A stretch of 30,515 nt of DNA from a virus, in IMG/VR virus record IMGVR_UViG_3300024518_000518, positions 1-30,515 of that record; one strand, written 5' to 3'. This document shows, one piece after another, positions 1,913-16,181 of this stretch (position 1 is the stretch's first letter; each line of letters opens with the position of its first letter). The notes under the pieces are model-generated. The model was not told the origin of the DNA. It saw only the letters and a program-made list of their open reading frames with translations, and did not search any database. Made by a program: the position numbers and the translations under genes.

Positions 1913-2107
1913 TTAAAACCCCACTTGGACAAACCCATTAGGTTTGACTATTGCTAACTGAGCATTCTTCCAACCGATAAGATACCAATTTCCCTCTTTA
2001 TCTTTACCGCTTAGTTCTTTATCTGGATATTGTGCTCCTCCTATACCCTGACCATAACTGTCTTGTAAATATCCTGCGTATTTACCTACTGCCATTTCAA
2101 ATGTCAT
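1913..2107 (-). CDS. Small protein of unknown function (64 aa)
   Basis: The ATG at 2107 shares one base with the stop of ardC (TAATG), indicating translational coupling. The 64-residue product is rich in Gly, Tyr and Trp (YAGYLQDSYGQGIGGAQYP, later WYLIGWKNAQLAIVKPNG) and looks like a compact beta-rich domain. No family is recognised. Coupling to ardC raises the possibility of a helper role in the antirestriction function, without direct support. It ends with two in-frame stops, TAA TAG. Confidence 0.6.
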   Translation of the reverse strand: MTFEMAVGKYAGYLQDSYGQGIGGAQYPDKELSGKDKEGNWYLIGWKNAQLAIVKPNGFVQVGF

Positions 2108-3000
2108 TATGCCACCTCTTTTTTTAAGTTTAATTGTAAATTTTCAAGATAATCAACTGCTTTCTGTGCTTGTGAAAAGGCGGTTATCATTGCCTTAGAA
2201 TCATCTTTGATTGCCTTAATCCAACTGTTAAGATATTGAGCGTGGTCTTTCCTGACAGTTTTTTCTACGTTAAGAATTTGGCACATGAAAGCTGAACCGA
2301 TTTCAGCCACCAATTCTTCTTTAGCGTATTCTTCTTTGTTGTGCATTCCAGTTAACTCTCTTTCGCATCTTGATTTATGACCAGTCCAATGAGTAAGTTC
2401 ATGCAATAAAGTTGAGTAGTAAGTTACATCTGTAATAAAGTTCTCCTTCTTAGGCATTCCTATTGTGTCTTGTATAGGAGAGTAAAAAGCACTATCGCGA
2501 GAATCGTCTATTATTGCTTTCGTATTAGATATATAACTTTCTATTAATTTAAGTTGTTCTGAACTTAATTCAGTTTCATGTTTGTGATCTACTTTTTCAG
2601 TTACAAAATCTTCTATCTGTTCTGCGTTAAATACATTGTATGTTCTCCACATGAAGTAAGTTGGCAGTTGACCAGTTGACCTGTAGTTGGCAAGTTCGCC
2701 GTCTGTTAACCAAGATTCTTTTTTAGGTTTTACGCTAGCGAATACTACTTGGGTTGCTTTAGAGCCTTTCTTGATTTTATAATCTTTCTCGCTCCATTGT
2801 TTAAAAGTTCCCCATTCATTAGAGTTGTAATCTTGGCAAGAAAGCCAAAAATAATTCATACCCCTGTATGCTTTCTTTGTTACATGATTTATAGGTGCGC
2901 CTTTACCAATCCAAGACTTTGTCCAATCAGAACCTTCTGTTTCCATAAGTTCCAAAATCTTAGTCTGAATCTTTTCAAATATTTCATTTTTCTTTTTCAT
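2107..3000 (-). CDS. ardC: ArdC-type antirestriction protein with zincin metallopeptidase domain
   Basis: The 297-residue protein has the two-part build of ArdC: an N-terminal ssDNA-binding-type domain (about residues 5-130, with W26, AYRGMNYFWL at 44-53, WGTFKQW near 63-69 and the KKGSKAT turn) and a zincin-like metallopeptidase domain (about 155-290). The zinc motif HELTHWTGH begins at residue 200, and a downstream EELVAEIG gives the third ligand (E233). In plasmids ArdC binds ssDNA and protects incoming DNA from type I restriction. In a phage it probably protects the genome on entry. It sits 94 bases after the HNH gene with its own promoter-like element, so it may be expressed early. All key residues are present. 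Confidence 0.88.
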   Translation of the reverse strand: MKKKNEIFEKIQTKILELMETEGSDWTKSWIGKGAPINHVTKKAYRGMNYFWLSCQDYNSNEWGTFKQWSEKDYKIKKGSKATQVVFASVKPKKESWLTDGELANYRSTGQLPTYFMWRTYNVFNAEQIEDFVTEKVDHKHETELSSEQLKLIESYISNTKAIIDDSRDSAFYSPIQDTIGMPKKENFITDVTYYSTLLHELTHWTGHKSRCERELTGMHNKEEYAKEELVAEIGSAFMCQILNVEKTVRKDHAQYLNSWIKAIKDDSKAMITAFSQAQKAVDYLENLQLNLKKEVA

Positions 3001-3047
3001 TTTATTTTTCTCAATTTAATCAAGCCTTAATTAACTTAATGTTCAAC

Positions 3048-3091
3048 ACTATAAACCTTTTCAATTAATAAATAAACCTTTTTTGGAATAA
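3048..3091 (-). promoter_or_regulatory. Promoter-like element upstream of ardC
   Basis: Reading leftward, TTATTCCAAAAAAGGTTTAT (3091-3072) is followed by TATAGT at 3053-3048, about 48 bases before the ardC start. The TTCC to TATAGT distance is 35 bases, exactly as in the element before the replication gene at 10562-10604. The shared sequence and spacing suggest a common regulator or a phage-specific promoter; TATAGT is a plausible -10 box. No transcript evidence is available. Confidence 0.5.
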
Positions 3092-3094
3092 TAA

Positions 3095-3394
3095 TCATTC
3101 TTTTTTAACCAACTTATTTACCATTTCCAGTAATTCATATTCAGTTCCGTATGCTTGAACAAATCTTGCTTTGTATGGATGCCTACTTATTGGTTCCATA
3201 TCACTACCCATTCTGTGATGCTCAAAACATAAAGGCAAGACTTTGAAATGGGTGTCTAACTTAGTCTTACCTTCAATGTGATGTATCTCGCTAGGCACTC
3301 CATAAAACCCCTGTAAGCGACAAACGATACAGCCTAGTTGACTTACACTATCCATGTGCCTTTTCTCTTTAGCGGTGGGGTTTCTACTTTTCAT
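3095..3394 (-). CDS. Ref-like HNH nuclease (99 aa)
   Basis: This small protein has the zinc and active-site pattern of HNH nucleases of the phage P1 Ref type: C22-x2-C25, the His pair H38-H39 in EIHHIEGK, and C56-x2-H59-H60 in PLCFEHHRMG. It then has the RHPYKARF and YGTEYELLE segments that in that family follow the nuclease core. Ref is a RecA-dependent nuclease that makes targeted cuts at displacement loops. This gene lies in the same operon as Erf and a RecB-like nuclease, consistent with a role in phage recombination. An HNH nuclease for another purpose, such as a homing-type or packaging nuclease, is less likely given the context. Confidence 0.8.
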   Translation of the reverse strand: MKSRNPTAKEKRHMDSVSQLGCIVCRLQGFYGVPSEIHHIEGKTKLDTHFKVLPLCFEHHRMGSDMEPISRHPYKARFVQAYGTEYELLEMVNKLVKKE

Positions 3395-3665
3395 CTAATT
3401 TATTTATATCTATGTTTTGTATGTCGTTGTTTATTAATCCTTCCCTTAAATCAATTAACATTCTTTGTGCTATGAATTTGGCAATTTCATTTCTTAAAGG
3501 TAATGTATCTTTATGCACTTTAGAGTTTGGATAACTGAAGCTGTTGCCTAGTGTGCCTAACATATCATTTATTGAACCCTCTATGCCTTTCTTTAAAAAG
3601 TTTGATTGTGCCTCTTTGTATAGGTCACTATTAAAAATAATATCATCTAGTGTTTTATGCTCCAT
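3384..3665 (-). CDS. Uncharacterised protein (93 aa) in the recombination operon
   Basis: A longer frame opens at 3716, but the start at ATG 3665 is preferred because it follows AAAGGAAAAG and keeps a modest 11-base overlap with the preceding gene. The product is mostly helical and polar (MEHKTLDDIIFNSDLYKEAQ...), with a helix containing IAKFIAQRMLIDLREG. No family is recognised. It overlaps the following HNH gene by 11 bases, so the two are probably translated together. Confidence 0.6.
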   Translation of the reverse strand: MEHKTLDDIIFNSDLYKEAQSNFLKKGIEGSINDMLGTLGNSFSYPNSKVHKDTLPLRNEIAKFIAQRMLIDLREGLINNDIQNIDINKLDEK

Positions 3666-3993
3666 ATCTTTTCCTTTCTTCCCTAGCATTAACCATTTTA
3701 GTTCGCCATTCTTCAAAGCCTACATCTAATGATTTAAGTTCAATCTTTAATGCCGATAGTTGACCTTTTGCTACACCTACTTTTAATCTAAATTGATATA
3801 ACGAATCATCATTATCAGCGTATGTTTTTTGAGCAGATACAGTCTTAACACCTTTAGCAGTAGCCATGAGTTCTAACTGTGCTTGTAATCTTTTAACGTC
3901 AGCTTCACATTTTAGCACCTCATATTCTGCTTTAGAAACACGAGGTGCTAAAGACCTTATCTTATCTTGCCAAGATTCTACTTGTTCATTCAT
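3655..3993 (-). CDS. Coiled-coil protein of the recombination operon (112 aa)
   Basis: The protein is almost wholly alpha-helical with two coiled-coil stretches (about residues 14-46 and 68-95), a central segment with KGVKTVSAQKTYADNDDSLY and a basic end REERKRYGA. From memory, similar proteins occur next to single-strand-binding genes in environmental phages, but I know of no assigned function. It starts two bases after the candidate ssDNA-binding gene and overlaps the next gene by 11 bases. A structural or partner role in recombination or replication complexes is a reasonable guess. Confidence 0.65.
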   Translation of the reverse strand: MNEQVESWQDKIRSLAPRVSKAEYEVLKCEADVKRLQAQLELMATAKGVKTVSAQKTYADNDDSLYQFRLKVGVAKGQLSALKIELKSLDVGFEEWRTKMVNAREERKRYGA

Positions 3994-3995
3994 GC

Positions 3996-4412
3996 TTAAA
4001 AAGGTATGTCGTCAGATGATTTATCTTCTACTTCAGTCTGAACAACTTTATTTTCAATTATTAAATTACCCTCTGAATCATAAGGTGTCAATTTAACGCT
4101 TGTATAGTCTGTGCCTTTATCGGACATATTCGCCCAACCTCCAAATTTATATACAGTTCCTTCGTGGGTTATTTTTCCTCCTATATCTGGTGTGCCTTTG
4201 CTTTTTTTATCTTCAGGCTTGTTGTAATGTAAAAGACCCAAAGAAACTACCAATTCATATTTATCTGGATAATTGCCGTCTCCACTGTACTTTAAGATAC
4301 CGCAGTATTTATCTTCTCCATTTATATTAATTTTACCTTTTCTTGGTACTGTTACATTATTCTCAAGGAACATATTCCCTGTGTTATTTTTAATTACATA
4401 TTTTTCAGACAT
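3996..4412 (-). CDS. Candidate phage single-stranded DNA-binding protein (138 aa)
   Basis: The protein is beta-rich for about 110 residues and ends in an acidic, flexible tail finishing with DDIPF (residues 134-138). That tail closely matches the DDDIPF tip by which bacterial SSB recruits partner proteins. Residues 80-110 contain ITHEGTVYKFGGWANMSDK, a pattern of short strands consistent with an OB-like domain. Position directly after erf and a winged-helix gene supports a role coating ssDNA during recombination and replication. The core does not clearly match classical SSB, so this is assigned from the tail, fold impression and context. The start overlaps the preceding gene by 8 bases. Confidence 0.6.
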   Translation of the reverse strand: MSEKYVIKNNTGNMFLENNVTVPRKGKININGEDKYCGILKYSGDGNYPDKYELVVSLGLLHYNKPEDKKSKGTPDIGGKITHEGTVYKFGGWANMSDKGTDYTSVKLTPYDSEGNLIIENKVVQTEVEDKSSDDIPF

Positions 4413-4677
4413 TATTTTCTCCTGTTATTAGTCTATATTGATAACCCTTACCTTCGGTTATTCTTTTTTTTATTACAATATCTCCATTCAAAGGCAATCC
4501 GTATTTGACCCTTGAAGGATATTTTCTCAATTCTCTTATTGAAGCAGACAATGAAGGCTCTCCGTAGAACCTTCCTGTCATATCTTGTATATTTTTTTGC
4601 AGACTCCAAAAAGTCCACCATTGTCCATTTCTCATGGATAAATATACAAAGTCATTAATAGAATTAGGTTTGCTCAT
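4405..4677 (-). CDS. Small winged-helix DNA-binding protein (90 aa)
   Basis: The predicted pattern is helix (SINDFVYLSMRNGQW), turn, recognition helix (SLSASIRELRKYPS) and a beta wing (DIVIKKRITEGKGYQYRLI). This is the order expected for a winged-helix domain. It overlaps the end of erf by 14 bases and the start of the candidate ssDNA-binding gene by 8 bases, so all three are likely produced from one message. Such proteins sit in the recombination modules of many phages; whether this one regulates the operon or loads recombination proteins is not visible. Confidence 0.65.
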   Translation of the reverse strand: MSKPNSINDFVYLSMRNGQWWTFWSLQKNIQDMTGRFYGEPSLSASIRELRKYPSRVKYGLPLNGDIVIKKRITEGKGYQYRLITGENNV

Positions 4678-5281
4678 ATACTGCTATGAGTCTTTCATAT
4701 CCTTCTATGAATTTTTTAACCCTAGTGTCAGCTTTTGCTTGTTTGATAATTGTTTTATTAACTTCATATAATCCTATGGAATCTGTATCAGGATTTTCAG
4801 AAGGTAAAACTTTACCTATAGATGATAAAAACTTGGTTGGGTCAGTATCTTCAAATAAAGTTTCCCCTTCGGCATTAGCAAATGCATATTTAACTTGCCT
4901 TCGCATTGCTTTCTCGGCGTCATCATCTTCGTCTGCAGTAGCAATACCGCAAGCCATCTGTAAAGAATATCTTTTTGCATAAGATAGAGCCGAACCGAAT
5001 GCTTGTGGGTCATTCTTAGAAGCAGGTATATACACTTGCCCTGACGTTATAGAAGCACCGTGACCCATAAATACAGTTTCAATAGAAACACCATTCTCTG
5101 ATAAATGGCTTATCTGTTGTAGATATATGCCTTCATCATTTAATGGTTTTTTAATGGTATCTAGTACTTGCTTTAACGACGCATAACTACTCTTAAAGAA
5201 AGGGTTTTTAGCATCATTTACGACATGGTCAATTTTTTCTTGTGCTTTGACCAAAGCAGTAATCAATGTTTGATTATTCAT
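4664..5281 (-). CDS. erf: Erf-family single-strand annealing recombinase
   Basis: The product matches the ERF family: N-terminal helix with LVKAQEKIDHVVNDAKNPFF, then SSYASLKQVLDTIKKPLNDEG (Y-A-S-L is typical), a strand segment around SIETVFMGHG and the conserved QAFGSALSYAKRYSLQ followed by an acidic DEDDDAEKA. Erf proteins form rings on ssDNA and anneal complementary strands, giving phage recombination without RecA. A start four codons upstream (5293) is possible, but ATG 5281 has GGAG seven bases before it and forms an ATGA overlap with the nuclease gene. That overlap supports coupled production of nuclease and annealing protein, the usual pairing. Confidence 0.88.
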   Translation of the reverse strand: MNNQTLITALVKAQEKIDHVVNDAKNPFFKSSYASLKQVLDTIKKPLNDEGIYLQQISHLSENGVSIETVFMGHGASITSGQVYIPASKNDPQAFGSALSYAKRYSLQMACGIATADEDDDAEKAMRRQVKYAFANAEGETLFEDTDPTKFLSSIGKVLPSENPDTDSIGLYEVNKTIIKQAKADTRVKKFIEGYERLIAVYEQT

Positions 5282-6075
5282 TTTATACTCCATATTGTTT
5301 TAGCAAACTTAATTTCTTCCGCACCCCATTTCCAGTCATCTAGGTTTGGATAAAAAAGATTTGCTATCTCATGTTTATCATTTGAATAGGACAAGAGGTT
5401 CATTATCTTTAATGCTACTTGTTCTACAGTGTGAATGTGCTTATCTACTTGATGTACTGTTTCAGATACTACCTGTTCATCTTTGGCAGTAACTACTATG
5501 TAATCAAGAATAGGCACACAATCTTCTGCCTTTGCGTAAACAGAAACCTGTCTAGCGTGAGCATCAGAAACTTTGTAGGGTCGCCTTGCGGTGGTTTTTA
5601 TATCCCTAATAGTATCGTTGTACTTTAAATCTATGAACCCAATTATAGGAACAGGGATAGATTCAAGGTTAAGTTCAATTCTTTTTTGGTATTCAGTAGG
5701 TTGCCCTAAATCTTCATAAAAATCTATTGCAGTTTTTATGTATCTAGGAATCCTGTCTGCTTCTTCTAAAAACTTTTTATGATTTATCTCTTGTGTTGGG
5801 TATTCACTTTTACAATTATCATAAGTAACTTGGTATTCAAAAAGTGCAGACTGTATTGTTTCTCCTAAATCTATGGGTTTTTCTGTGAAGCCAAAATATT
5901 TACCAACTCCATGATCGGTTACAGTGCCTCGCCACATTGCGGGACCGCCACCGTTTCTGAATTTGAATAGATATCTCATTATCCAAATACAAGGGTCGTC
6001 TATGTAACTGTTGATAGAGGAAGGGGAAAGGTGTTCTATATCATGTATAGAAAATACATCATTATTATTTTTCAT
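5278..6075 (-). CDS. PD-(D/E)XK nuclease of the RecB/Cas4-like class
   Basis: The 265-residue protein has the signature order of RecB-like nucleases: LSPSSINSYIDDPCIW near residue 16, a conserved His (H55 in GTVTDHGVGKY), the active-site GFIDL (D149), D158-I-K160 (RDIKTT) and the downstream Q176-x3-Y180. These catalyse metal-dependent DNA cleavage. It lacks the C-terminal Cys cluster of iron-sulphur Cas4 proteins. As the first gene of the leftward operon with an ATGA overlap to erf, it is the expected partner exonuclease that resects ends so that Erf can anneal them. The start has a clear AGGAAAT-type upstream region and a divergent promoter region behind it. Confidence 0.87.
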   Translation of the reverse strand: MKNNNDVFSIHDIEHLSPSSINSYIDDPCIWIMRYLFKFRNGGGPAMWRGTVTDHGVGKYFGFTEKPIDLGETIQSALFEYQVTYDNCKSEYPTQEINHKKFLEEADRIPRYIKTAIDFYEDLGQPTEYQKRIELNLESIPVPIIGFIDLKYNDTIRDIKTTARRPYKVSDAHARQVSVYAKAEDCVPILDYIVVTAKDEQVVSETVHQVDKHIHTVEQVALKIMNLLSYSNDKHEIANLFYPNLDDWKWGAEEIKFAKTIWSIK

Positions 6076-6119
6076 TTTATTTCCTGTTCAATTTATTGAT
6101 TGACTCTGTAACTGGTTTC

Positions 6120-6140
6120 ATTATAATTCATTTCTGGAAT
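6120..6140 (-). promoter_or_regulatory. Candidate leftward promoter/operator in the divergent control region
   Basis: Between the two opposite operons (6076-6155) the leftward strand reads TTATTCCAGAAATGAAT and runs directly into TATAAT at 6125-6120, a perfect -10 box. ATTC and GAAT form a short inverted repeat around the centre. The TTATTCC start matches the elements before ardC and the replication gene. The Cro-like protein encoded just to the right is a natural candidate to bind here. The -35 region is weak, which would suit an activator- or repressor-controlled promoter. Confidence 0.5.
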
Positions 6141-6155
6141 AATTAAAACTAATTT

Positions 6156-6359
6156 ATGAAATTAAAAAAATACTTAAAAACAAATAACTATACCCAAATG
6201 TCTTTTATTAAAGAGATAGAAGAAAGAGAAGGATTGCGAATTCCTCAAGGCACTTTAGCTAAATGGATAACTGGAACTAGAATACCTAGAAAAAAAGAGA
6301 TGCTATTATTAATTCGCATGACAGACGGCTTGGTGACCCCTAATGATTTTTATATATAA
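6156..6359 (+). CDS. Cro/CI-type helix-turn-helix regulator (67 aa)
   Basis: The small protein has the order LKKYLKTNNYTQMSFIKEIE, then GTLAKWITGTRIPRKKEM, then LIRMTDGLVTPNDFYI. This corresponds to the scaffold helix, the recognition helix with W-x-TG-x-R-x-P and the terminal helix with T-x-G-x-V-x-x-x-D-F of Cro-like phage repressors. Nothing is fused to it, so it would bind as a small dimer. It is the first gene of the rightward arm, next to the divergent promoter region, and probably sets the balance of the two arms. The upstream ribosome binding site is weak, suggesting low-level production. Confidence 0.8.
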   Translation: MKLKKYLKTNNYTQMSFIKEIEEREGLRIPQGTLAKWITGTRIPRKKEMLLLIRMTDGLVTPNDFYI

Positions 6360-6370
6360 AAGGAGAGAAA

Positions 6371-7006
6371 ATGTCTTATAAAGTTGAGATGATTGATATA
6401 GCTGAACTAATTCCATATGAAAACAATCCAAGAGATAACAAAAATTCAATAGAAAAAGTTGCTGAAAGCATTCGTAATTATGGATTTAAAGTTCCTGTTG
6501 TTGTAGATGAAAATAATATAATTTTAGCAGGTCATACAAGGGTTCTTGCAGCCAAATTGCTCGGTCTAAAAAAAGTGCCTACACACACGGCCACTGGTCT
6601 TTCAAAGCAGCAAAAAACTGCTTTCCGCATAATGGATAATAAGGTGCACGAATTTTCAGAGTGGGATATGGGTTTGTTGGCTAAAGAATTTGAAAATTTA
6701 GCTGAACAAGACTTTGATTTAGGTTTGACTGGTTTTGAATTCTCAGAAATTGGAAAAATCACTAAGGGTGCGATGCTAGAGTTTGACGCTCCTGATTTAG
6801 AGCTATCAGACACTGACTGGTCTGCAGAAGGCGTATATATCCCCGAAACAAATATTAAACAATTTATGCTTTTATATGACATATCAACAATAGAAGAAAT
6901 GAAAACGATGATAGAGGCTCTACGAGAGGAATATAAAATAGAAAGTCCTTCAGACATTATCTTTGAGGCAGTAACGCGTGAATACAAAAAAAATACCAAT
7001 CTATAA
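6371..7006 (+). CDS. ParB/sulfiredoxin-like domain protein of the DNA modification cassette
   Basis: Residues 5-90 form a ParB-type N-terminal domain: IPYENNPRDN, SIRNYGFKVPVVVDENN, and the GHTRVLAAK motif (GHTR at 54-57), with the KVPTHTA end. The C-terminal part (about 155-211, with KQFMLLYDISTIEEMKTMIE and SPSDIIFEAV) resembles the segment that follows ParB domains in phage modification proteins. ParB-like domains can bind or hydrolyse nucleotides or cut DNA. There is no methyltransferase domain. The gene has a strong ribosome binding site (AAAGGAGAG) and overlaps the TET/JBP gene by 29 bases. From published comparative work (Iyer, Aravind and colleagues) ParB genes recur next to phage TET/JBP enzymes, so a part in locating or tailoring modification is likely. 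Confidence 0.85.
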   Translation: MSYKVEMIDIAELIPYENNPRDNKNSIEKVAESIRNYGFKVPVVVDENNIILAGHTRVLAAKLLGLKKVPTHTATGLSKQQKTAFRIMDNKVHEFSEWDMGLLAKEFENLAEQDFDLGLTGFEFSEIGKITKGAMLEFDAPDLELSDTDWSAEGVYIPETNIKQFMLLYDISTIEEMKTMIEALREEYKIESPSDIIFEAVTREYKKNTNL

Positions 7007-7904
7007 TCTTAAGCCTGTTTGTAGTTACGAAGAATCTCATAAATACGCAAGCAATTACGCAACAGACAAAGACTATTCAGTCTTAATCAATAGCGACTGC
7101 GACGCATATAAAGAGGACGGGCAGCCTTTATTTTTCTATCGTAAGAATCGCATACCTGCGAGCATTTGTAAAACAGCTTATAAGAATTTAAGGAAGGCAG
7201 CGCAGCCCACTGAGAATCGCGGCATGGCGGCTGGAATTTTAGACAACGAAGAACATTTAAAACACAAGCAATCTAGTGTCACAAGATTCCAAAGAATTAA
7301 GAAAGACGGTACATTGAGTCGGGTTCATAGAGCGAAGAAAGTTTGTTCAGGGATAGCAGGTTATTTTGATAGGAATGCAAGGAGACCTTATTGTAGGCAA
7401 ACAGCTTTCACAGAACATAACCGTAAAGAGTTTACTGCTTCTATACCCTACCTCAAGAGTATAAATTCTCTCTTTGCTGAAGCTTGCCCAGAACGGTATA
7501 ACGCACAAGCAGAATATGCGGGGAAAACCAATAAAGATTTTATTATCTCTGGTACTGTTTTTACTACCGTTACGGTTAATCTTAACTTTCAGACAGCCTA
7601 CCATTTAGATGCAGGTGATTTGAAAGCAGGGTTAGGAAACATAGCCGTTCTCAAGGCAGGGAAGTATGAAGGTGGATATACGGTGATGCCAAGATATGAT
7701 TGCGCCTTTGATTTGGGGAGCGGTGATGTTTGTTTTTTTGATGTGCATGAATATCACGGCAATACTAAAATTAAGGCTAAGGCTCCGTATGAGCGTATCT
7801 CCGTTGTTTGCTACTATCGTGAAAAAATGACTGACTGCGGAAGTATGTTAGAAGAATTAGACAAAGTAAAGAATAGAAAAGAGGGGGATTCTATTGGAAA
7901 GTAA
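6978..7904 (+). CDS. TET/JBP-family 2-oxoglutarate/Fe(II) DNA base dioxygenase
   Basis: This 308-residue protein carries the full catalytic set of the TET/JBP family: H209-x-D211 in TAYHLDAGD, H260 in DVHEYHGN and the 2-oxoglutarate-binding R273 in ERISVVCYYREKM, which closely parallels the TRISLVFYQHK of animal TET. The preceding GTVFTTVTVNLNFQ and GGYTVMPRYDCAFDLGSGD also match the family. The enzymes oxidise the methyl group of 5-methylcytosine or thymine in DNA to a hydroxymethyl group. The start is GTG 6978 with GAGG ten bases upstream; no ATG exists before residue 83, so GTG is favoured. No cytosine methyltransferase is encoded in the window, leaving thymine (JBP-like activity) or an externally methylated cytosine as substrate. 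Its product would be the acceptor for the genes that follow. Confidence 0.9.
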   Translation: MNTKKIPIYNLKPVCSYEESHKYASNYATDKDYSVLINSDCDAYKEDGQPLFFYRKNRIPASICKTAYKNLRKAAQPTENRGMAAGILDNEEHLKHKQSSVTRFQRIKKDGTLSRVHRAKKVCSGIAGYFDRNARRPYCRQTAFTEHNRKEFTASIPYLKSINSLFAEACPERYNAQAEYAGKTNKDFIISGTVFTTVTVNLNFQTAYHLDAGDLKAGLGNIAVLKAGKYEGGYTVMPRYDCAFDLGSGDVCFFDVHEYHGNTKIKAKAPYERISVVCYYREKMTDCGSMLEELDKVKNRKEGDSIGK

Positions 7905-10032
7905 ACGTAATTTTCTGAACAAAGATACTGAAGACAGCATCGTACCTTTTGGAGCTAATCGTTGGTCTGATTATCTTTTCAGACTAACCCCAGTAGAACA
8001 AAAGTCAGATGGCGTTTGGTATAAAAGGGAAGACAAGTTTGCTCTCTTTGGAATTAACACTCTCAATGGTTCTAAATGCCGACAATTACTTTACCTTTTT
8101 GAATCTAGACCGCAAGGAGCTGATACCGTTATACACGGAACCAATGTCAATGCTTCTCCACAAACACCAATGACAGCCGCGATGGCTGAGCATTATGGTC
8201 TAAGGTGCATACAAGTCGCAGGAGGAACAAATTTTAATTCTATTTCAAAGAAAGATTTACCGCGATTTGCCACTATGTTTGGGGCAGAGTATGACCTTTC
8301 TTGCCGTAGTGGTTTTAATGTGGGGGTTCAAAAGCGCGTAAGAACGATAATGAAAGATTTTGATAATTGCTTCACCATAGAAAGAGACATTACTTTAGAC
8401 CACGCAAGAGCTGAAAACACAGCATCAAAAATTCTCTCCTTTCACGAGGTAGGGGCAAGACAAGTAAAAAATATACCTGACCATATAGAAGATTTGATCA
8501 TACCTTTTGGTTCAGCCAATTCAGCAACCTCTATCATGTTGGGTTTATCTATGTATAAGCCGAAAAATGTCTGCCGCGTCCACTTAATTAATGTGGGAGT
8601 AGACAAGAGAGATTACATGTTTGAGAGGTTAGGTCTTATGGGCGCTGATGTTTCTGCGTATGACTACTTCTGGTATGACACTAAAATACCCTATAGCAAG
8701 CTCTTTAAGGGGGTACAGATAGATGATATGACGTTTCACCCAAGATATGAGGCAAAGGTGATTAACTATATGAGAGACAACTTGCCTGAGTTGATGAAAG
8801 ACACGACCTTGTTTTGGAATATTGGCTCATACCCTGATATTAATACTGTAGCTAAGAACCTCAATCTGAATGTCCCTAAAAAAGTTAAAGAATATACAGA
8901 GAAAACAAGCGCGTTAATCGGTTCATACAGCAAGCTCCACAATGATAAAGAAATTAAACTCCTAAAATACGGTATGGATTTCCGAGAGCCGAAGTATCGC
9001 AGAGAAGTATTTTTGCGTCTTTATGAATTTCACCTAAAACACAAGAGCCATCCTGGAGGCGTTTATTTTGCGTTCCCTTGGCTTACGAAAGAGTACGAAT
9101 TGAACATAGACCAGAAACTTTGGCTAGCATTCATTAATGGCTGCTCACAAAATATTATAACCAGTTGGCATATATTCAATAAATTTCCAGAGCCAAAAGG
9201 CTTAAACTTGGATTTGGTAGATGATTGGTGGAATAAAACGCAGCACAAATTTAAGTCTGGTTCTGGATGGGACGCTGACAGGAGATATTTCAAAGTAGGG
9301 AAAACAGGCATGCCCAATTGTATGCGCTCGTATATAAAGCAAGTCAATAAATATGGTTCGCAAGAGAAGATGTTCAATGCTTTATGTGAAAAAAACGATC
9401 CTTATTTAAACTTTGGTGTTGTCTGGGACTTTGTTAGAGATAATTTCCTTTCCTTTGGGAGATTATCCACGTTTTCATATTTGGAGTATTTAAAGATTCA
9501 AGGCGTAAACATAGATTGTAATAATCTTTTCATAGAGGATATTAATGGCTCGCGTTCTCACCGCAATGGGATTTGCAAGGTGTTAGGTAGAGATGATTTA
9601 GATTGGTGGAAAACAAAGGTGGCCTATTCCCCAGAAATAATACGTTGGTTGAAAGGGGAGGCTGTTAAGTTGTTAGATGAGGCAAAGGAGCGTTACCCGC
9701 ACGAAGACGCAGGTTATTTCACCCTAGAATCTGCTCTGTGTAATTACAAATCATGGCACAGACCTAATCGCCGATACCCAAATGTTTATATGGATATGTT
9801 TCACAACAGGATTAAATACGCTGAGAAAGAATGGGGACTTAAAGAGGGAGAAATATTTTGGAAAATGAGGACAGACTGTTTGCCCAAAGCGTTATTACTT
9901 GAGGAAAACCCAAAAGATTTAGGCTTGTGCCCAGAAAAGCAAAATCATTATTTATACACAGGTCAACCCGTCATGATGGATGGTGATTGGGAATGTTTTA
10001 ATAATGACTATAATCGTTTGGTTAACTCATGA
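7894..10032 (+). CDS. PLP-dependent enzyme fused to an amino acid:DNA transferase-like domain
   Basis: The 712-residue protein has two parts. Residues 20-325 resemble fold-type II PLP enzymes such as ACC deaminase and D-cysteine desulfhydrase: WYKREDKFA, the probable PLP lysine K61 in NGSKCRQLLYL, NASPQ at 86-90 for substrate binding, and the phosphate loop FGSANSATSIMLGL (205-218). Residues 360-712 form an all-helical domain (LWLAFINGCSQNIITSWHIF near 409-428, and LESALCNYK later followed by RRYPNVYMD) resembling the amino acid:DNA transferase domains linked to phage thymine hypermodification. I infer transfer of an amino acid to the activated base followed by PLP-dependent trimming. The start is TTG 7894, placed behind GAGGGGG; the next in-frame Met is residue 93, inside the PLP domain. 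It overlaps its neighbours by 11 and 4 bases. Confidence 0.8.
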   Translation: MESKRNFLNKDTEDSIVPFGANRWSDYLFRLTPVEQKSDGVWYKREDKFALFGINTLNGSKCRQLLYLFESRPQGADTVIHGTNVNASPQTPMTAAMAEHYGLRCIQVAGGTNFNSISKKDLPRFATMFGAEYDLSCRSGFNVGVQKRVRTIMKDFDNCFTIERDITLDHARAENTASKILSFHEVGARQVKNIPDHIEDLIIPFGSANSATSIMLGLSMYKPKNVCRVHLINVGVDKRDYMFERLGLMGADVSAYDYFWYDTKIPYSKLFKGVQIDDMTFHPRYEAKVINYMRDNLPELMKDTTLFWNIGSYPDINTVAKNLNLNVPKKVKEYTEKTSALIGSYSKLHNDKEIKLLKYGMDFREPKYRREVFLRLYEFHLKHKSHPGGVYFAFPWLTKEYELNIDQKLWLAFINGCSQNIITSWHIFNKFPEPKGLNLDLVDDWWNKTQHKFKSGSGWDADRRYFKVGKTGMPNCMRSYIKQVNKYGSQEKMFNALCEKNDPYLNFGVVWDFVRDNFLSFGRLSTFSYLEYLKIQGVNIDCNNLFIEDINGSRSHRNGICKVLGRDDLDWWKTKVAYSPEIIRWLKGEAVKLLDEAKERYPHEDAGYFTLESALCNYKSWHRPNRRYPNVYMDMFHNRIKYAEKEWGLKEGEIFWKMRTDCLPKALLLEENPKDLGLCPEKQNHYLYTGQPVMMDGDWECFNNDYNRLVNS

Positions 10033-10559
10033 AATGTTTAGCGATAGGGGGTGAGCCCGCTACTGGGAAAACTACACTGATGCGAGAAGTGTTAAAAATG
10101 GTTAAACCCAGTAAAAAGTTTAAATATGGCTTGTTGAGAGGGTACATTGAACCTTTTGCAAATGTCAGCGTATTAGGTATTTATGAACACCAAGAGGTGT
10201 TTGCAGGAACTGATAAATTGTCAATGGCAGTTCAAAAAGACTTTGATAAATTTGTTCAACTTAAAACTAAAAATATTATTTTTGAGGGGGATAGGTTGTT
10301 TACAAAAAAAAACCTTTTATATTTAACAAAAAATTACGAGACTAGAATAATCATTCTTAAAAATGAAAAGAAAATTATTGCTAGTAGGCACATAAACAGA
10401 GGGGACAATCAATCAGAGACGTTTAAAAAATCTAGGCACACTAAAATATCTAATATAATTTCTGAGCCAAATTTGAAACATATAGAATTTTATAAATTGA
10501 ACGATATATCTGAATCAGAATCTTTGGCAGCGGAGATATACAATTGGTTTTTTATATAA
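10029..10559 (+). CDS. P-loop kinase, candidate hydroxymethyl-base DNA kinase
   Basis: This 176-residue protein has a Walker A loop GEPATGKT (residues 8-15), a GTDKLSMAVQ segment (about 61-70), a second acidic strand IIFEGDRLF (about 88-96) and a basic LID-like stretch with SRHINRGD and SRHTK. This is the profile of a small nucleotide or nucleic-acid kinase. In Vi1- and M6-type phages a P-loop kinase phosphorylates 5-hydroxymethyluracil in DNA so that an amino acid or amine can replace the phosphate. Position directly after the TET/JBP and transferase genes, with an ATGA overlap, makes the same step the best guess here. It is strikingly AT-rich compared with its two upstream neighbours. An ordinary nucleotide kinase is the alternative. 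Confidence 0.75.
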   Translation: MKCLAIGGEPATGKTTLMREVLKMVKPSKKFKYGLLRGYIEPFANVSVLGIYEHQEVFAGTDKLSMAVQKDFDKFVQLKTKNIIFEGDRLFTKKNLLYLTKNYETRIIILKNEKKIIASRHINRGDNQSETFKKSRHTKISNIISEPNLKHIEFYKLNDISESESLAAEIYNWFFI

Positions 10560-10561
10560 AA

Positions 10562-10604
10562 TATTCCAATAAAGGTTTATTTTTATTTATAAACAAGTTA
10601 TAGT
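10562..10604 (+). promoter_or_regulatory. Promoter-like element upstream of the replication genes
   Basis: TATTCCAATAAAGGTTTATT starts at 10562 and TATAGT lies at 10599-10604, 35 bases after the TTCC, exactly the arrangement found before ardC on the other strand. It lies in the 99-base gap between the kinase and the replication gene, which also carries an excellent ribosome binding site (AAGGAGG, 10648-10654). The element probably starts a separate early transcript for replication. Confidence 0.5.
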
Positions 10605-10658
10605 TTTAATATTAAGAATAATCTTAATCCAATTTTTAAATCACCAAAAGGAGGATAA

Positions 10659-11297
10659 ATGTCTATAGAATGTTTAAATCAAGCCTTAAAGATAAAAGGC
10701 TTCACGCCAACCAAAAAGTTTATTTTAGTTTTGTTAGGGAATTATTGTGATGAAAGGGGAAGTTGTTACCCTTCATATAGGCATATCGCTGATATAGTAG
10801 GTCTAAAGGACACAAAAGGCGTACAAAGGGCTATCAAAGAATTTGAAGAATTAGGATATCTCAAAATACAAAGAAGGAGAACCCCAGACGGGAGTAATAC
10901 AAGTAATAGATACCACTTATCTATCAGTGATGGCTCTCAAACCCCGAGGGGTCTAGAAACCCCTCAGCTAACCGCCTCAGCACCCCTTAATACTAAAGAG
11001 AATACAAAAGAATATATATGTAAGGAATTTAAAACCTTTTGGTCAGTCTATCCAAGAAAAATTGGAAAGAAGATGGCTATGAAGATTTTTAATAAATTTG
11101 ATGAAAAACACCACTCAAAAATATTATATGGTGCACAAAGATTTGCAGAACAAAATATCCAAACAGATGAGAAGTTTATACCCCATGCTCAAACTTGGTT
11201 AAACCAAGAGAGATGGATGGATCATTTTGAAACTGATGAGAATGGGTATGCAATAAAACCTAAAGAAGTAAAAACAATTAATAATTTAGCGGGGTAA
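10659..11297 (+). CDS. Winged-helix phage replication protein (initiator/replisome organiser type)
   Basis: Residues 1-95 form a helix-turn-helix domain of the phage type used in replication organisers: SIECLNQALKIKGFTPTKKF, then CYPSYRHIADIVGL, KGVQRAIKEFEELGYLKIQR and a wing ending in NRYHLSI. After a variable linker, residues 125-190 contain FKTFWSVYPRKIGKKMAMKI and FIPHAQTWLNQERWMD, the usual C-terminal domain of lambda O/DnaD-like proteins, which contacts the helicase. The protein likely binds the phage origin and loads the primase-helicase encoded next. The start is fixed by a near-perfect ribosome binding site. An origin inside or near this gene would be usual, but I see no clear repeat cluster. 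Confidence 0.83.
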   Translation: MSIECLNQALKIKGFTPTKKFILVLLGNYCDERGSCYPSYRHIADIVGLKDTKGVQRAIKEFEELGYLKIQRRRTPDGSNTSNRYHLSISDGSQTPRGLETPQLTASAPLNTKENTKEYICKEFKTFWSVYPRKIGKKMAMKIFNKFDEKHHSKILYGAQRFAEQNIQTDEKFIPHAQTWLNQERWMDHFETDENGYAIKPKEVKTINNLAG

Positions 11298-11300
11298 TCA

Positions 11301-13001
11301 ATGGAAAATAAAACACCACAAGAACACGGAATAAAATTAAGAACCACAGAACATGGCTCACAAAAAATTAAGTGCCCTGAATGTCAACCGCCACACAAGC
11401 AATTAGATAATCCTTTAACTGTTACCATTAACGCAGAAGGCACAGTCTGGTATTGTCATCATTGTGATTGGAGAGGGTCTTATTTTGATAACCCTAAATC
11501 TAGTTTTCCATTACCTAAAAAGACTTATACAAAACCGCCACCACCTAAACAAAACAACACAGATGATATGTATTCCTTCTTTAAAGGTAGGGGGATAGAA
11601 AAAAAGGTAGTTGATAAGTTCAAAATATTTGATGAAAACAAATGGTTTGGTTTTCAGTACTTTAATGAAAATAACGAATTAGAAAATATAAAATACAGAA
11701 CAGTAGATAAAGGCTTTAGGCAAACATCAGGAGCAAAATCAATACTTTATAACTACAACAATGTTCACAATAAAGAAACTGTTGTATTTGTAGAGGGAGA
11801 AATGGATGTATTAAGTTGCGAAATGGTTGGCTATCCTGCAACTACATTACCAAATGGAGCACCCAAAGAAGCCAAGTTCAACAAGAATGATGCAAGATTT
11901 ACTGCTCTAACTAATTGTCCGCTCAAAGCAAAAAAGATTATTATATTTACTGATACAGATACTTCTGGCAGAGCCTTACATAAAGAGTTGTTGCATAGAT
12001 TTGGTAAAGACGTAGCTTGGTTTGTGAGACTTCCTGAAGATTGCAAAGATGCTAATGATGTTTTAATGAAACACGGGAAGGTAGAATTACAAAATATAAT
12101 TAACAAAGCAGAACCTTACCCTATAGATGGTTTATATACTGCTAACGACTACCACGGACAGTTACATGATTTATATGAGGGTAACTATGAAAAGCCTTTA
12201 GACGTCGGTATACAAGGGTTAGATGATATCTACAAGATAATGCCTTCCACCTTTCATACAATCACAGGTATACCTAATCATGGGAAGTCATTGTTCCTTG
12301 ACCAAATACTTTTAACTTTAGCAAAAAACCACGATTGGAAGTTTGCGGTGTTTTCTCCCGAACACAGCACACAGTTCCATATAAGAAGAATGGCACAGAT
12401 GTATATTCACAAAGGATTTGATGAAGGGTTAAATAACAGAATGTCCGTTACAGAATTAAACGAAGCAATAGAGTTTATACACAACCATTTCTACTTTATA
12501 GAAACAAGGGAAAGTGTGCCTTCTATAGATTTAATACATAGCATAGTTAAATCAAGCATCTTTAAGCATGGAATAAATGGCTTTGTTATAGACCCCTTTA
12601 ATGAAGTAAGTGCTAAACGTGCAGGTAACGCTAGAGAAGATGAACATATAAGAGACTTCATATCCTTATGTAAACGATTCAGCCGTATATACGAGATTGT
12701 TACATGGGTGGTTGCACATCCTACAAAACTTCAAAAGGGAACGGATGGCTCTTACGCACCACCTACTGCTTATGATATTAGTGGGGCAGCTCATTGGCAC
12801 AACATGTCAGACGTGGTTATAACAGTGCACAGAGACTTTGACACCAACACTACAAGAGTAATAACAAGGAAAATAAGGGAACAAGACTTATACGGAAAGA
12901 TAGGGGAAGCTAAGTTTGTATATAATTTTAATGACCATTGTTTTAAGCCAGAAATCATATCAACAATAAGTGATTGGAATGATATAGCTTTCAATAAATA
13001 A
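11301..13001 (+). CDS. Bifunctional DNA primase-helicase (T7 gp4/Twinkle type)
   Basis: The 566-residue protein has an N-terminal zinc finger (C25, C28, C52, C55), a TOPRIM primase core with FVEGEMDVLS (E166) and FTDTDTSGRALHKEL (D218, D220), and a RecA-like hexameric helicase domain with Walker A GIPNHGKS (323-330), a Walker B region GFVIDPFNEV and the conserved VVAHPTK histidine motif. It primes and unwinds DNA at the replication fork. It starts three bases after the replication organiser, with GGGG in the preceding stop region as ribosome binding site, so the two are a unit. No phage DNA polymerase is in the window, so either it lies elsewhere or the host polymerase is used. Confidence 0.93.
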   Translation: MENKTPQEHGIKLRTTEHGSQKIKCPECQPPHKQLDNPLTVTINAEGTVWYCHHCDWRGSYFDNPKSSFPLPKKTYTKPPPPKQNNTDDMYSFFKGRGIEKKVVDKFKIFDENKWFGFQYFNENNELENIKYRTVDKGFRQTSGAKSILYNYNNVHNKETVVFVEGEMDVLSCEMVGYPATTLPNGAPKEAKFNKNDARFTALTNCPLKAKKIIIFTDTDTSGRALHKELLHRFGKDVAWFVRLPEDCKDANDVLMKHGKVELQNIINKAEPYPIDGLYTANDYHGQLHDLYEGNYEKPLDVGIQGLDDIYKIMPSTFHTITGIPNHGKSLFLDQILLTLAKNHDWKFAVFSPEHSTQFHIRRMAQMYIHKGFDEGLNNRMSVTELNEAIEFIHNHFYFIETRESVPSIDLIHSIVKSSIFKHGINGFVIDPFNEVSAKRAGNAREDEHIRDFISLCKRFSRIYEIVTWVVAHPTKLQKGTDGSYAPPTAYDISGAAHWHNMSDVVITVHRDFDTNTTRVITRKIREQDLYGKIGEAKFVYNFNDHCFKPEIISTISDWNDIAFNK

Positions 13002-13010
13002 GTCTTAATT

Positions 13011-13037
13011 GTTCCTTTTTGGAATCTTATGTATTAT
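13011..13037 (+). promoter_or_regulatory. Inverted-repeat promoter-like site upstream of the packaging genes
   Basis: GTTCCTTTTTGGAATC, a near-perfect inverted repeat (TTCC-N5-GGAA), lies at 13011-13026 and is followed by TATTAT at 13032-13037, 24 bases before the terminase small subunit. It shares TTCC and a nearby GG with the sites before ardC and the replication gene, but its -10-like box is closer. It may be the start of the late transcript or an operator for it. Confidence 0.4.
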
Positions 13038-13061
13038 CATCTTGGGAAAGATTGAGAATAT

Positions 13062-13628
13062 ATGAGTAAAAAATCTACAACAAACAAACTTACCACAGAT
13101 TTAAAACTGGAAATACGCAACCTTTATGTGCAAGGAATAAGTAATGAAGAAGGCACAAGAAAAACATATACACTTGATGAACTGTATAAAAAGCACAACG
13201 TAGCTAAATCAACACTTTACAGGGTTTCACAAAAAGAAAATTGGAAGGTTGAAAGAGAACAATTCCAACAAAGATATTTAGCAGATTTAGATGTAGAAAG
13301 GACAAGGAATCTAACAGAAGAATCAAAGAAGTTTGACTTAAACAGTCTCAATTTAGCCAAAGCACTTATGGCAACAGTAGGTCAGAATATTAGAACGAAT
13401 ACTGAAAACATAAATAATGGAGCAAAGAATTTCCTTCCTCATCAATTAAACGCCCTTGCAGGTGCAGCTTTATCATCACAAAGATTGGCTAAACTAGCAT
13501 TAGGCGAAAACACTGAGAACGTAAACATAAATGCAAACATACACGACGAAGCCTTCAGAGAAGCTATGGAATTGCTTGACACAGTTGCAGACGGACGCAG
13601 AGAAAGCAACAATAAGCCTATACACTGA
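13062..13628 (+). CDS. terS: Terminase small subunit
   Basis: The N-terminal 75 residues contain a helix-turn-helix typical of terminase small subunits (TTDLKLEIRNLYVQGISNEE, TLDELYKKHNVAKSTLYRVS, KENWKVEREQFQQRY). The rest is helical and fits an oligomerisation domain. The protein would recognise the packaging site in phage DNA and direct the large subunit to it. It lies immediately upstream of the large subunit, the canonical order. Its C-terminal 98 bases overlap the large-subunit reading frame, an unusually long overlap. The ribosome binding site is weak (GGGAAAG 14 bases upstream). Confidence 0.85.
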   Translation: MSKKSTTNKLTTDLKLEIRNLYVQGISNEEGTRKTYTLDELYKKHNVAKSTLYRVSQKENWKVEREQFQQRYLADLDVERTRNLTEESKKFDLNSLNLAKALMATVGQNIRTNTENINNGAKNFLPHQLNALAGAALSSQRLAKLALGENTENVNINANIHDEAFREAMELLDTVADGRRESNNKPIH

Positions 13629-14835
13629 TTGGCTCAAGACAGCTAGACTTAAACAGCTACAGCCAAAAGAAAGCCATTACATCTGGTTAATTCTTGCAGG
13701 CAGAGGTTGGGGCAAGACAAGAACTGGCGCACAAGATATTGCCCTGTATGCTTTACGAAATCCTAATACAATTTGTGCAGTTGTAGCACCAACGTCTGGA
13801 GATTTAAGGAGAGTTTGTTTTGGCGGACCTAGCGGTTTAGTAGAGATAATACCTAAAGAATGTTTGTCAGAGCAAAAGGATATGAAAGGCTATTCATCAA
13901 GTATGTCTGAAATACGATTACATAATGGTTCTAAAATAATAGGTTATTCAGCATCAGAACCAGAAAGATTAAGAGGACCTCAGTTTCATAGAGCATGGGC
14001 TGATGAGTTGGCAGCTTGGAGATACCCTGAAACGTTTGATCAGTTAATGTTTTCATTAAGATTAGGAGATAACCCTCAATGTGTGATAACCACCACACCC
14101 AAGCCAACAAAGATAATTAAAGAACTGGTATTGAGAAAAGATGTACAGGTAACATCAGGCAGCACGTTTGAGAATGAAGAAAACTTAGCAGACACCGCAT
14201 TGGCTATGCTTAGAGAAAGATACGAAGGCACGGCTATGGGTAGGCAAGAGTTGTATGCAGAAATTATAGAGGATATAGAAGGTGCTTTGTGGACAAATAA
14301 AATGATTGAAGGCATGAGAATCACTGATGATACGGAAACAACCTTAAAACAAATAATAGTAGCGATAGACCCTGCTGTAACCGCTAACGAGAATTCAGAT
14401 GAAACAGGAATTGTTGTAGTAGGCAAAGATTACAACGAAAGATATTATGTTTTAGAAGATGTATCTGGCAAGTATTCTCCCGACCAATGGGGAAGAAAAG
14501 CTATAGATTGCTATTATGAATGGCAAGCTGATAGAATAGTAGCAGAAGTAAATAATGGTGGTGACTTAGTAGAAAGATTGTTGAGAAGTATAGATAACAA
14601 TGTTCCTTACAGGTCAGTGAGGGCAACAAGAGGTAAGCTCACAAGAGCAGAACCTATATCTGCCCTTTATGAACAGAAGCGAGTTCACCATGTTGGATAT
14701 TTTGCTGAATTAGAATCGCAGATGTGTTCTTATACTGGCGAAACGAGACCTTCCCCTGACAGATTGGATGCTTTAGTATGGGGTCTAACCGAACTAAGCA
14801 GATCAAGAGGAGAAGTTAACTGGAGAATAAGCTAA
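13531..14835 (+). CDS. terL: Terminase large subunit (packaging ATPase/nuclease)
   Basis: The 434-residue protein has the ATPase Walker A GRGWGKT (57-63), Walker B with HRAWADELAAW (about 153-163) and an RNase H-like nuclease with VAIDPAV (D280), VAEVNNGG and DRLDALVWGL near the C-terminus. The form AGRGWGKTRTGA is typical of the terminase class found in gene-transfer-agent and alphaproteobacterial HK97-type phages. It drives DNA into proheads and cuts it. The only ATG before the Walker A is at 13531, inside terS; TTG codons at 13576 and 13585 would give a shorter version with less overlap, so the start is uncertain by up to 54 bases. Confidence 0.95.
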   Translation: MQTYTTKPSEKLWNCLTQLQTDAEKATISLYTDWLKTARLKQLQPKESHYIWLILAGRGWGKTRTGAQDIALYALRNPNTICAVVAPTSGDLRRVCFGGPSGLVEIIPKECLSEQKDMKGYSSSMSEIRLHNGSKIIGYSASEPERLRGPQFHRAWADELAAWRYPETFDQLMFSLRLGDNPQCVITTTPKPTKIIKELVLRKDVQVTSGSTFENEENLADTALAMLRERYEGTAMGRQELYAEIIEDIEGALWTNKMIEGMRITDDTETTLKQIIVAIDPAVTANENSDETGIVVVGKDYNERYYVLEDVSGKYSPDQWGRKAIDCYYEWQADRIVAEVNNGGDLVERLLRSIDNNVPYRSVRATRGKLTRAEPISALYEQKRVHHVGYFAELESQMCSYTGETRPSPDRLDALVWGLTELSRSRGEVNWRIS

Positions 14836-16181
14836 TGGCAATGAGAGACAACATAAAAAATCTTTTTAACGGCAGACCTAAAACGCAATCAAAGGCTATA
14901 GGGAACATGGTCAGTTATTTTGGTGTCAACACAAGCGGTAAGCAGTACGACTATAAAGACTTAGCTGAAGAAGGCTATATGAAGAACAGTATTGTTTATA
15001 GGTGTGTTAATGAGATATCACATGGAGCAAGTGCAGTTCCATATATGCTCAAGTCAGGCGATACAGTAATAGAGCAACATCCACTTCTGTCATTAATAGA
15101 CAGACCCAATCCTTTGCAATCACATAGTGAGTTTTTTAATGCGTTGTTTGGTTATCTATTATTAAGCGGTAACGCATACATTTTGAAAGTGGGTTCTGAT
15201 TTAGGCAAACCCAAAGAGCTGCATTTGTTAAGACCAGACAGAATGGTAGTCAAAGGGGGGAGTAAGCCAATACCCGATAGATACGATTACGTTATTAATG
15301 GCAAAGTACAAGCAAGTTACGATGTTGATGACACAACTGGCTATAGTGAAGTCAAACACATTAAGCTATGGAATCCATTAGATGATTACTGTGGATTATC
15401 TCCAATGGCTGCTGCTGCCCTTGAGATAGACCAACACAACATGGCAAGCAAACACAATGTTAATCTGCTAGAGAACGGAGCAAGACCAAGTGGTGCTGTG
15501 GTGTATAAGCCTAAAGATGATGGTGGTTTTGCGGTCAACCTAAGTGAATCACAAAGACAACAACTCATTACAGACCTCAATAACAGATTTACTGGTACTG
15601 CTAATGCAGGTAGACCCATGTTACTAGAAGGAGACTTTGACTGGAAAGAAATGGGATTGTCTCCTAAAGACATGGATTTTTTAAACCTCAAGCACATGGC
15701 AACAACCGATATAGCATTATGTTTTGGAGTTCCCAGTCAGTTAGTGGGTGTACCCGATGCACAGACTTATGCCAATGTAGCTGAAGCTAGACTGGCTTTA
15801 TATGAAGAAACAATTATTCCTCATCTTAGAAAGATAGAGTCTGATATTAATGAGTGGTTAGTTCCCATGTTTGGAGAGAACTTAACCTTTGAATATGACA
15901 TAGACAAGATACCTGCCTTATCTGAGCGCAGAAGAAAGATATACGAGAATGTCACAAGTGCAGTAAGGGAAGGCATCATGACTCGCAATGAAGCAAGAGA
16001 GTTAATAGGTCTGTCCCCTATAGACGGTGCAGATGAATTGTATATATCTGCTAACCTATTCCCAATAGGTGAGGAGCCAACACCCGTACCTAATAATCCT
16101 ATTTCAGATGATGAGCTAGATGACTTTGATATAGAGGAAGAATTACCAGAAGGAGATGAAGCTGTAGATGCCCCTACTTAG
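14835..16181 (+). CDS. Portal protein (HK97-type)
   Basis: The 448-residue protein matches HK97-type portals: NSIVYRCVNEISHGASAVP near residue 51, HPLLSLIDRPNPLQS, the FGYLLLSGNAYILKV helix, PDRMVVKG, a long central helix region and the tunnel-side GVPSQLVGVPDAQTYANV. It then has NEARELIGLSPIDG and ends in an acidic disordered tail (DDFDIEEELPEGDEAVDA). It forms the dodecameric ring through which DNA enters and leaves the head. The start shares one base with the terL stop (TAATG). Confidence 0.94.
   Translation: MAMRDNIKNLFNGRPKTQSKAIGNMVSYFGVNTSGKQYDYKDLAEEGYMKNSIVYRCVNEISHGASAVPYMLKSGDTVIEQHPLLSLIDRPNPLQSHSEFFNALFGYLLLSGNAYILKVGSDLGKPKELHLLRPDRMVVKGGSKPIPDRYDYVINGKVQASYDVDDTTGYSEVKHIKLWNPLDDYCGLSPMAAAALEIDQHNMASKHNVNLLENGARPSGAVVYKPKDDGGFAVNLSESQRQQLITDLNNRFTGTANAGRPMLLEGDFDWKEMGLSPKDMDFLNLKHMATTDIALCFGVPSQLVGVPDAQTYANVAEARLALYEETIIPHLRKIESDINEWLVPMFGENLTFEYDIDKIPALSERRRKIYENVTSAVREGIMTRNEARELIGLSPIDGADELYISANLFPIGEEPTPVPNNPISDDELDDFDIEEELPEGDEAVDAPT

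Follow-up and report, generated by a model that had tools for sequence, protein, structure and literature searches.

A predicted thymine-hypermodification cassette with a fused PLP enzyme and amino acid:DNA transferase in a marine phage

The sequence considered in this study (the window) is an entire record of the IMG/VR database, the 30,515 bases of the marine virus IMGVR_UViG_3300024518_000518. It carries, in overlapping frames, four genes that are predicted to specify a post-replicative pathway for the hypermodification of thymine. I put the probability of this reading at about three in four, on the basis of the families of the proteins, their catalytic residues, the order of the genes, the selection acting on them, homology to proteins of Salmonella phage Vi01, and a fold match of the predicted amino acid:DNA transferase (ADDT).

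In the proposed route, a ParB-like protein would help put a TET/JBP dioxygenase onto DNA, and the dioxygenase, to judge from gene content, would hydroxylate certain thymines at their methyl group, giving 5-hydroxymethyluracil in DNA. A P-loop kinase would then phosphorylate the hydroxymethyl group, yielding 5-phosphomethyl-dU. The ADDT half of a fusion protein would swap the phosphate for an amino acid, and the PLP half would decarboxylate or otherwise trim that amino acid to a short amine, the intermediate being passed between the two active sites of the fusion. The product would probably be serine-derived and resemble the 5-(2-aminoethoxy)methyl-dU of Vi01; the choice of serine is a guess to which I give slightly less than even odds. 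The purpose of all this would be to conceal phage DNA from restriction enzymes.

Being compact, the four-gene cassette is well suited to testing whether phages put amino-acid-derived bases on thymine after replication, leaving the nucleotide pool unchanged. If the reading is true, it would supply a portable enzyme set to write amine handles into ordinary DNA and a bacterial-virus counterpart to JBP-type thymine hydroxylation, and it would explain why phages whose replication and packaging genes are closely related present differing DNA surfaces toward restriction systems.

The four genes and their products

The four open reading frames lie in series on the + strand, at 6371-7006, 6978-7904, 7894-10032 and 10029-10559, with overlaps of 29, 11 and 4 bases. 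The initial annotation had described them as genes for a ParB-like protein, a TET/JBP dioxygenase, a PLP-ADDT fusion and a P-loop kinase, and both the coordinates and all four family assignments are borne out by the reading frames, Pfam and PHROGs, in the case of the kinase through the matches of its relatives. The start codons are, in order, ATG (ParB), GTG (TET), TTG (fusion) and ATG (kinase), and the purine-rich sequence AGAGGGGG lies upstream of the TTG at ribosome-binding distance. A second contig (L004, a 34,118-base record) is 99.98% identical to the window over positions 1-18029 and reaches about 13.4 kb farther left, so that the two, taken as unjoined contigs, would jointly span some 44 kb. 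A search of the window for an end repeat found none. When two related contigs (L005 and L006) were compared, dN was 0.04-0.16 and dS 0.77-1.8 for all the genes of the cassette, and every one of them is thus under purifying selection.

The first gene (6371-7006, + strand) encodes a ParB/Srx-fold protein of 211 amino acids with a GHTR motif, which matches ParB_N (PF02195, 1.8e-6) and phrog_620 (1e-47). A ParB gene stands immediately 5' of the TET gene in nearly all loci of the window's TET clade, and no other neighbour of TET is as constant; its product probably serves the dioxygenase as a partner that loads it onto DNA or targets it. The dioxygenase itself (6978-7904, + strand; 308 amino acids) belongs to the 2OG-Fe(II) family Tet_JBP (PF12851, 6.4e-26). 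It had been called complete, and it is: the iron ligands of the HxD...H motif (H209, D211 and H260) and the 2OG arginine (R273) are present and invariant in an alignment of 28 members. A single-sequence search of the PDB gave nothing relevant for this protein, and a profile search found TET2 and NgTet1. The protein annotated as 'queuine tRNA-ribosyltransferase' in mycobacteriophage JAMaL (gp2, L114 785-1759) also has a Tet_JBP match, at 5e-8 and below the curated cut-off, and the invariant TET residues are present in it.

The third gene joins two enzymes. The N-terminal half (amino acids 1-341; 7894-8916, + strand) is a fold-type-II PLP enzyme, with the Schiff-base lysine, Lys61, in an NGSK motif and a phosphate loop, GSANS, at residues 206-210; both K61 and GSANS are conserved, and thus the lysine and the phosphate loop of fold-type-II enzymes have been retained. 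This half matches phrog_3650 (5e-64) as well as PLP-fold relatives, and it is 38% identical to Vi01 orf226 (Vi01_182; E 2.6e-47). The latter itself matches PALP in Pfam (2.5e-7), as do relatives of the window's PLP half. A sequence search of the PDB gave ACC deaminase (8.6e-4), and Foldseek, queried with a low-confidence model, gave D-cysteine desulfhydrase (2e-4). The fold call rests on sequence, with weak fold support because the model of this half is poor. A standalone PLP protein in two other records (L028 and L030), 65-66% identical to the window's PLP half, adjoins ADDT and 5-hmdU DNA kinase 2.

The C-terminal half (amino acids 342-712; 8917-10032, + strand) contains an invariant block, D549..GSxSHRNG, and matches the ADDT family PF18724 over residues 401-625 of the fusion (7.2e-23, 82 bits against a cut-off of 26.2). 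The dioxygenase and this C-terminal domain therefore both fall in the families first proposed for them, Tet_JBP and ADDT, and not in unrelated ones. The ADDT half is 28% identical to Vi01 orf247 (Vi01_199; 1.6e-18), which is an ADDT in Pfam. A search of the PDB by sequence returned no meaningful match, and the structural placement came from the fold search only: with an AlphaFold model of good quality (pLDDT 91.7), the one significant match in the PDB was 8z2m, the 5-PmdU glycinyltransferase PUGT (E 9.4e-4, probability 1.00, TM 0.46/0.58). When the full fusion was modeled by AlphaFold, the C-terminal half came out well and the N-terminal half poorly, and the arrangement of the domains was therefore not used. 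Hemagglutinin matches of the fusion in the PDB, weak and confined to a single stretch, were treated as chance.

An assembly artefact is ruled out as the origin of the fusion, whose reading frame is uninterrupted in the window, in the 99.98% identical L004, and in six more contigs (L005-L010) at about 78% protein identity. Elsewhere the two proteins are unfused, with PLP before ADDT in L012, L014, L031-L033 and L038, and ADDT before PLP in L028, L030, L040 and L041. The join in the fusion coincides with the start of the separate ADDT proteins. No cellular relative of the fusion was found in the cellular genome contigs searched.

The role of the PLP half allows a different reading, one that overlaps the main route as a sub-case of it. 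Rather than decarboxylating the bound amino acid, the enzyme might, for example, make or activate the donor, and the final base would then not be 5-NeOmdU-like. The nearest solved folds, ACC deaminase and D-cysteine desulfhydrase, are indeed eliminating enzymes, and some cassettes keep ADDT and the kinase with a 246-amino acid protein, or with an amidotransferase and GNAT, in place of PLP. Sequential action on the base is nonetheless favored by the fusion to ADDT and by how strongly the enzyme matches Vi01 orf226, and I consider the different role rather unlikely.

The last gene (10029-10559, + strand) encodes a P-loop kinase of 176 amino acids with the motifs GGEPATGKTTL, FAGTDKLS and EGDR. 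Taken alone, it matches Ploopntkinase3 (PF18751) at 0.0022, below the Pfam cut-off, and its membership in the family comes through its relatives only, 15 of the 23 aligned matching PF18751 (best 1.4e-71). From these matches and its occurrence in cassettes with ADDT but never in those with the TET-associated glycosyltransferase, it is a probable 5-hydroxymethyl-base DNA kinase. The kinase also matches phrog_800, which covers gp4 of JAMaL and of Vincenzo (L114 2834-3460 and L200 2559-3152), annotated as 'terminase small subunit' in these Cooper-type mycobacteriophages. JAMaL gp4 matches Ploopntkinase3 at 1.4e-71, and Vi01_061c, likewise labeled a terminase small subunit, belongs by Pfam to the 5-hmdU DNA kinases (2.6e-116). 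To judge from these matches, the terminase label on phrog_800 looks wrong.

The surroundings of the cassette include a small HTH protein encoded by the first gene of the + strand run (6156-6359, + strand; PF01381 at 0.0017, below cut-off), a possible regulator, and, downstream, a replication initiator and primase/helicase (10659-13001, + strand; phrog_270, 4e-39; phrog_239, 8e-80). An ArdC-type anti-restriction protein with a zincin domain (2107-3000, - strand; PF08401, 3.6e-21; PF18818, 1.1e-43) provides, as context, a second anti-restriction function beside the cassette. A protein of 1872 amino acids at 20432-26050 has repeated tail-fibre-like PHROG matches, with ten stretches matching phrog_30390. 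In the left extension of L004 (L201, 3529-9080), genes for CsgF, CsgG, an unmatched open reading frame, FecR, a curlin-repeat protein and a CHASE2-adenylate cyclase lie in a row. A phage-borne curli (T8SS) module is known from pelagiphages (PMC9599517); the same module occurs here on a phage with a hypermodification cassette, a possible sign of a SAR11-type host.

The base and the source of its hydroxymethyl group

In the TET/JBP family, JBP enzymes oxidize T in DNA and TET enzymes 5mC. If TET acted on 5-methylcytosine, a C5-cytosine methyltransferase might be sought in the same genomes. None was found in the window (a possibly incomplete record), and PF00145 found no match in any of 50 records, which include the complete phages HTVC112P, P12024L and JAMaL, as well as three records (Montesquieu, L028 and L030) that have ADDT and PLP but no TET. 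The record of Methylophilales phage Melnitz, used as a control, does score a PF00145 match in the same kind of record-level search. The phage TETs fall into two clades, the window's and that of Melnitz, with about 20% identity between them, and at the level of loci a C5-methylase accompanies 0 of 100 in the former versus 65 of 71 in the latter; these counts are not independent trials, since many of the records are fragmentary and the sequences related to one another. PF00145 is also absent from the TET phages Cr30, DLP_6, S-CBWM1 and C48C1. The lack of a methylase in the 50 records, as compared to 65 of 71 loci in the other clade, makes thymine the likelier substrate than 5-methylcytosine, a judgment drawn from gene absence in mostly fragmentary contigs of related sequence, with a host that might supply 5-methylcytosine. 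The window's TET is therefore taken, from gene content, as a probable thymine hydroxylase working on DNA.

The active site was compared as well. Eight residues past the 2OG arginine (R+8), a position that I take to contact the base, the window's TET has R281 where TET2 and NgTet1 have a histidine; the residue is R in 94% of the window's clade and D in 93% of the methylase-linked clade. This difference fits another base but is no proof of one. The motif HxDxxD was considered as a discriminator between T and 5mC and rejected, since it is common to both clades.

The cytosine version of the pathway has some points in its favor. In it, TET would oxidize 5mC, supplied by the host or by a methylase that escaped detection, and 5hmC would be the substrate of both the kinase and ADDT. 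The phage TETs studied to date reportedly act on 5mC (Burke 2021, cited in PMC12730594), and D214 of the window's TET is also present in the methylase-linked TETs. Furthermore, the TET-associated glycosyltransferase (TAGT), to which the di-glucosylated cytosines of T6-like phages are probably due (PMC13390438), occurs behind the same ParB-TET core. Against these stand the methylase survey, the R+8 residue of the base pocket, and the characterized relatives of ADDT, PLP and the kinase, which use thymine derivatives. On balance I regard the cytosine version as improbable.

With thymine as the preferred substrate, the hydroxymethyl group could still enter through a modified precursor, as in Vi01, which has thyA (a thymidylate synthase match in Pfam) and polymerase B. 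The initial annotation had favored oxidation in DNA over such a precursor, and the gene content supports it. There is no sign of a dUMP hydroxymethylase (a thymidylate-synthase homolog), PF00303 being absent from the near-identical contig (G001) and its relatives and PF02511 from G000 and G001, and no DNA polymerase A or B was found in G001. Among the ParB-TET records searched, none has a thymidylate synthase over the cut-off or a polymerase A or B, with the exception of JAMaL, which has polymerase A. Montesquieu alone gave a thymidylate synthase match over the cut-off, to its thymidylate synthase/hydroxymethylase; this phage lacks TET, encodes DNA polymerase A, and has ADDT and PLP as two genes. 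Host machinery copying the phage DNA would make replacement of dTTP hard, and oxidation in finished DNA would therefore be the natural solution. L028 and L030 have ADDT, PLP and polymerase B, yet neither TET nor a thymidylate synthase of either family; L030 has in addition 5-hmdU DNA kinase 2 and an NT5C nucleotidase.

As to the product, the M6-type aminoethyl base presumably requires a radical SAM enzyme. None was found in the fusion phages, which makes a serine-derived aminoethoxymethyl, or a base like it, more likely than an M6-type aminoethyl.

Exchangeable genes behind ParB-TET

The genes that follow TET were counted in loci with at least 3.5 kb after it (the window and L004/L042, though a single phage, were counted separately). 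ADDT is present in 45 loci and TAGT in 24, and in none are both together. The kinase accompanies ADDT in 43 of 45 loci by tblastn, and in the remaining two (L041 and L114) by other evidence, while it is found with TAGT in 0 of 24. The partners of ADDT are a PLP enzyme, a 246-amino acid protein, or a glutamine amidotransferase and GNAT, sometimes with a 290-amino acid protein. Those of TAGT are FkbM, a second glycosyltransferase, an HAD/APH-like protein with a cytidylyltransferase, or a cytidylyltransferase-cupin protein.

Phages with similar backbones need not have similar cassettes. L057 resembles the window in TerL (89%), primase-helicase (79%) and Erf (81%), but identity falls to 55% for TET and 45% for ParB, and the tail is of the amidotransferase type. 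L006, with a TerL of 77%, has the fusion and a TET of 80%. The cassette therefore moves independently of the phage backbone and, by gene content, ParB-TET is a constant core with exchangeable tails, in which phages of closely related backbone differ.

The largest class of cassettes has the 246-amino acid protein between TET and ADDT (L092 8911-9651; cluster c3, 27 members). It has no Pfam or PHROG match and is probably a tailoring enzyme in the place of the PLP enzyme. Another class (L087 4662-5309 and the genes following; clusters c4, c17 and c14/c18) has the glutamine amidotransferase, the 290-amino acid protein and GNAT before a divergent ADDT and kinase, and is predicted to make a further variant of the base, one not found described in the literature consulted. 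In L051 (8918-10552), a rearrangement has left ADDT and the 246-amino acid gene inverted relative to TET and the kinase, beside the same replication genes.

It is very improbable that RNA or free nucleotides are the substrates of the cassette, or that its genes are passengers in decay: PLP and P-loop are broad families, and phage relatives bear the labels 'queuine tRNA-ribosyltransferase' and 'terminase small subunit', but those annotations conflict with the Pfam matches to TET and kinase, the catalytic residues are intact under strong purifying selection, the gene order is conserved, and the fold match of ADDT is to an enzyme named for 5-phosphomethyl-dU.

Post-replicative modification of thymine by the window's four genes may belong to something wider, and I lean slightly toward thinking so: ParB-TET would be a general platform for in-DNA thymine hydroxylation in small, host-polymerase-dependent phages unable to exchange the dNTP pool, behind which tailoring modules (amino acid with PLP, amino acid with amidotransferase/GNAT, or sugar) are exchanged, two consecutive enzymes having here been fused into one channelling enzyme. 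If so, this would be the first route from thymine in DNA to a base derived from an amino acid to be shown in a phage.

Comparison with known systems

In the DNA of Vi01, 5-(2-aminoethoxy)methyl-dU replaces about 40% of T (PMC11721090), and the hypermodified T of Vi01 and M6 is thought to come from 5hmdU via a DNA kinase (PMC6449724). Pfam identifies Vi01 orf67, orf160 and orf243 as 5-hmdU DNA kinase domains. The products of these three with those of orf226 and orf247 are reported to rebuild 5-NeOmdU in vitro (Lee 2018). The window resembles Vi01 in the homology of its fusion halves to orf226 (PLP) and orf247 (ADDT), in the predicted kinase step on the hydroxymethyl group, and in the proposed amine product derived from thymine. 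It differs in that Vi01 supplies hydroxymethyl-dU at the precursor stage, by means of a thymidylate-synthase homolog and its own polymerase, whereas the window and its relatives have TET, no match to which was seen in Vi01. The kinases also differ, those of Vi01 belonging to the HMUDK/HMUD2 families and the window's to Ploopntkinase3, and the PLP and ADDT genes of Vi01 are separate, about 10 kb apart.

Among solved structures, PUGT, gp46 of Pseudomonas phage PaMx11 and a stand-alone enzyme, is the sole significant match of the window's ADDT half, with 12% identity and a TM of 0.46-0.58. PaMx11 encodes a thymidylate-synthase homolog (PMC9599517). Melnitz likewise has a TET predicted to oxidize a base methyl group in DNA, but one from the separate clade, with a methylase gene adjoining it. 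Phage systems of TET plus C5-methylase were reportedly the subject of Burke 2021, and enzyme combinations of the present sort are said to have been predicted by Iyer 2013.

The kind of cassette seen here is already known. Rhodococcus phage Tonitrus has, among its first five genes, a predicted thymidine hypermodification cassette of ParB, a TET-like J-binding protein, aGPT-Pplase2 and a 5-hmU DNA kinase (PMC11955845), the same set of ParB, TET-like protein, transferase and kinase as in the window, though with no PLP enzyme named and no fusion in its published description. Genes 1-4 of JAMaL (Coopervirus) are ParB, TET, ADDT and Ploopntkinase3, in the order of the window; its cassette lacks a PLP enzyme, its ADDT is 36.8% identical to the window's, and it has its own DNA polymerase A. 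The suggestion that a compact cassette with a fused enzyme may be new thus survives for the fusion, which was not found in the literature, and fails for the ParB-TET-transferase-kinase cassette as such, predicted earlier for Tonitrus (PMC11955845) and visible in JAMaL. Measured against the literature consulted, the new parts are the PLP-ADDT fusion, the survey-wide absence of a methylase, the lack of both a precursor and a methylase route, and the exchange of tails, in which a single core bears either an amino-acid tail or a sugar tail but never both.
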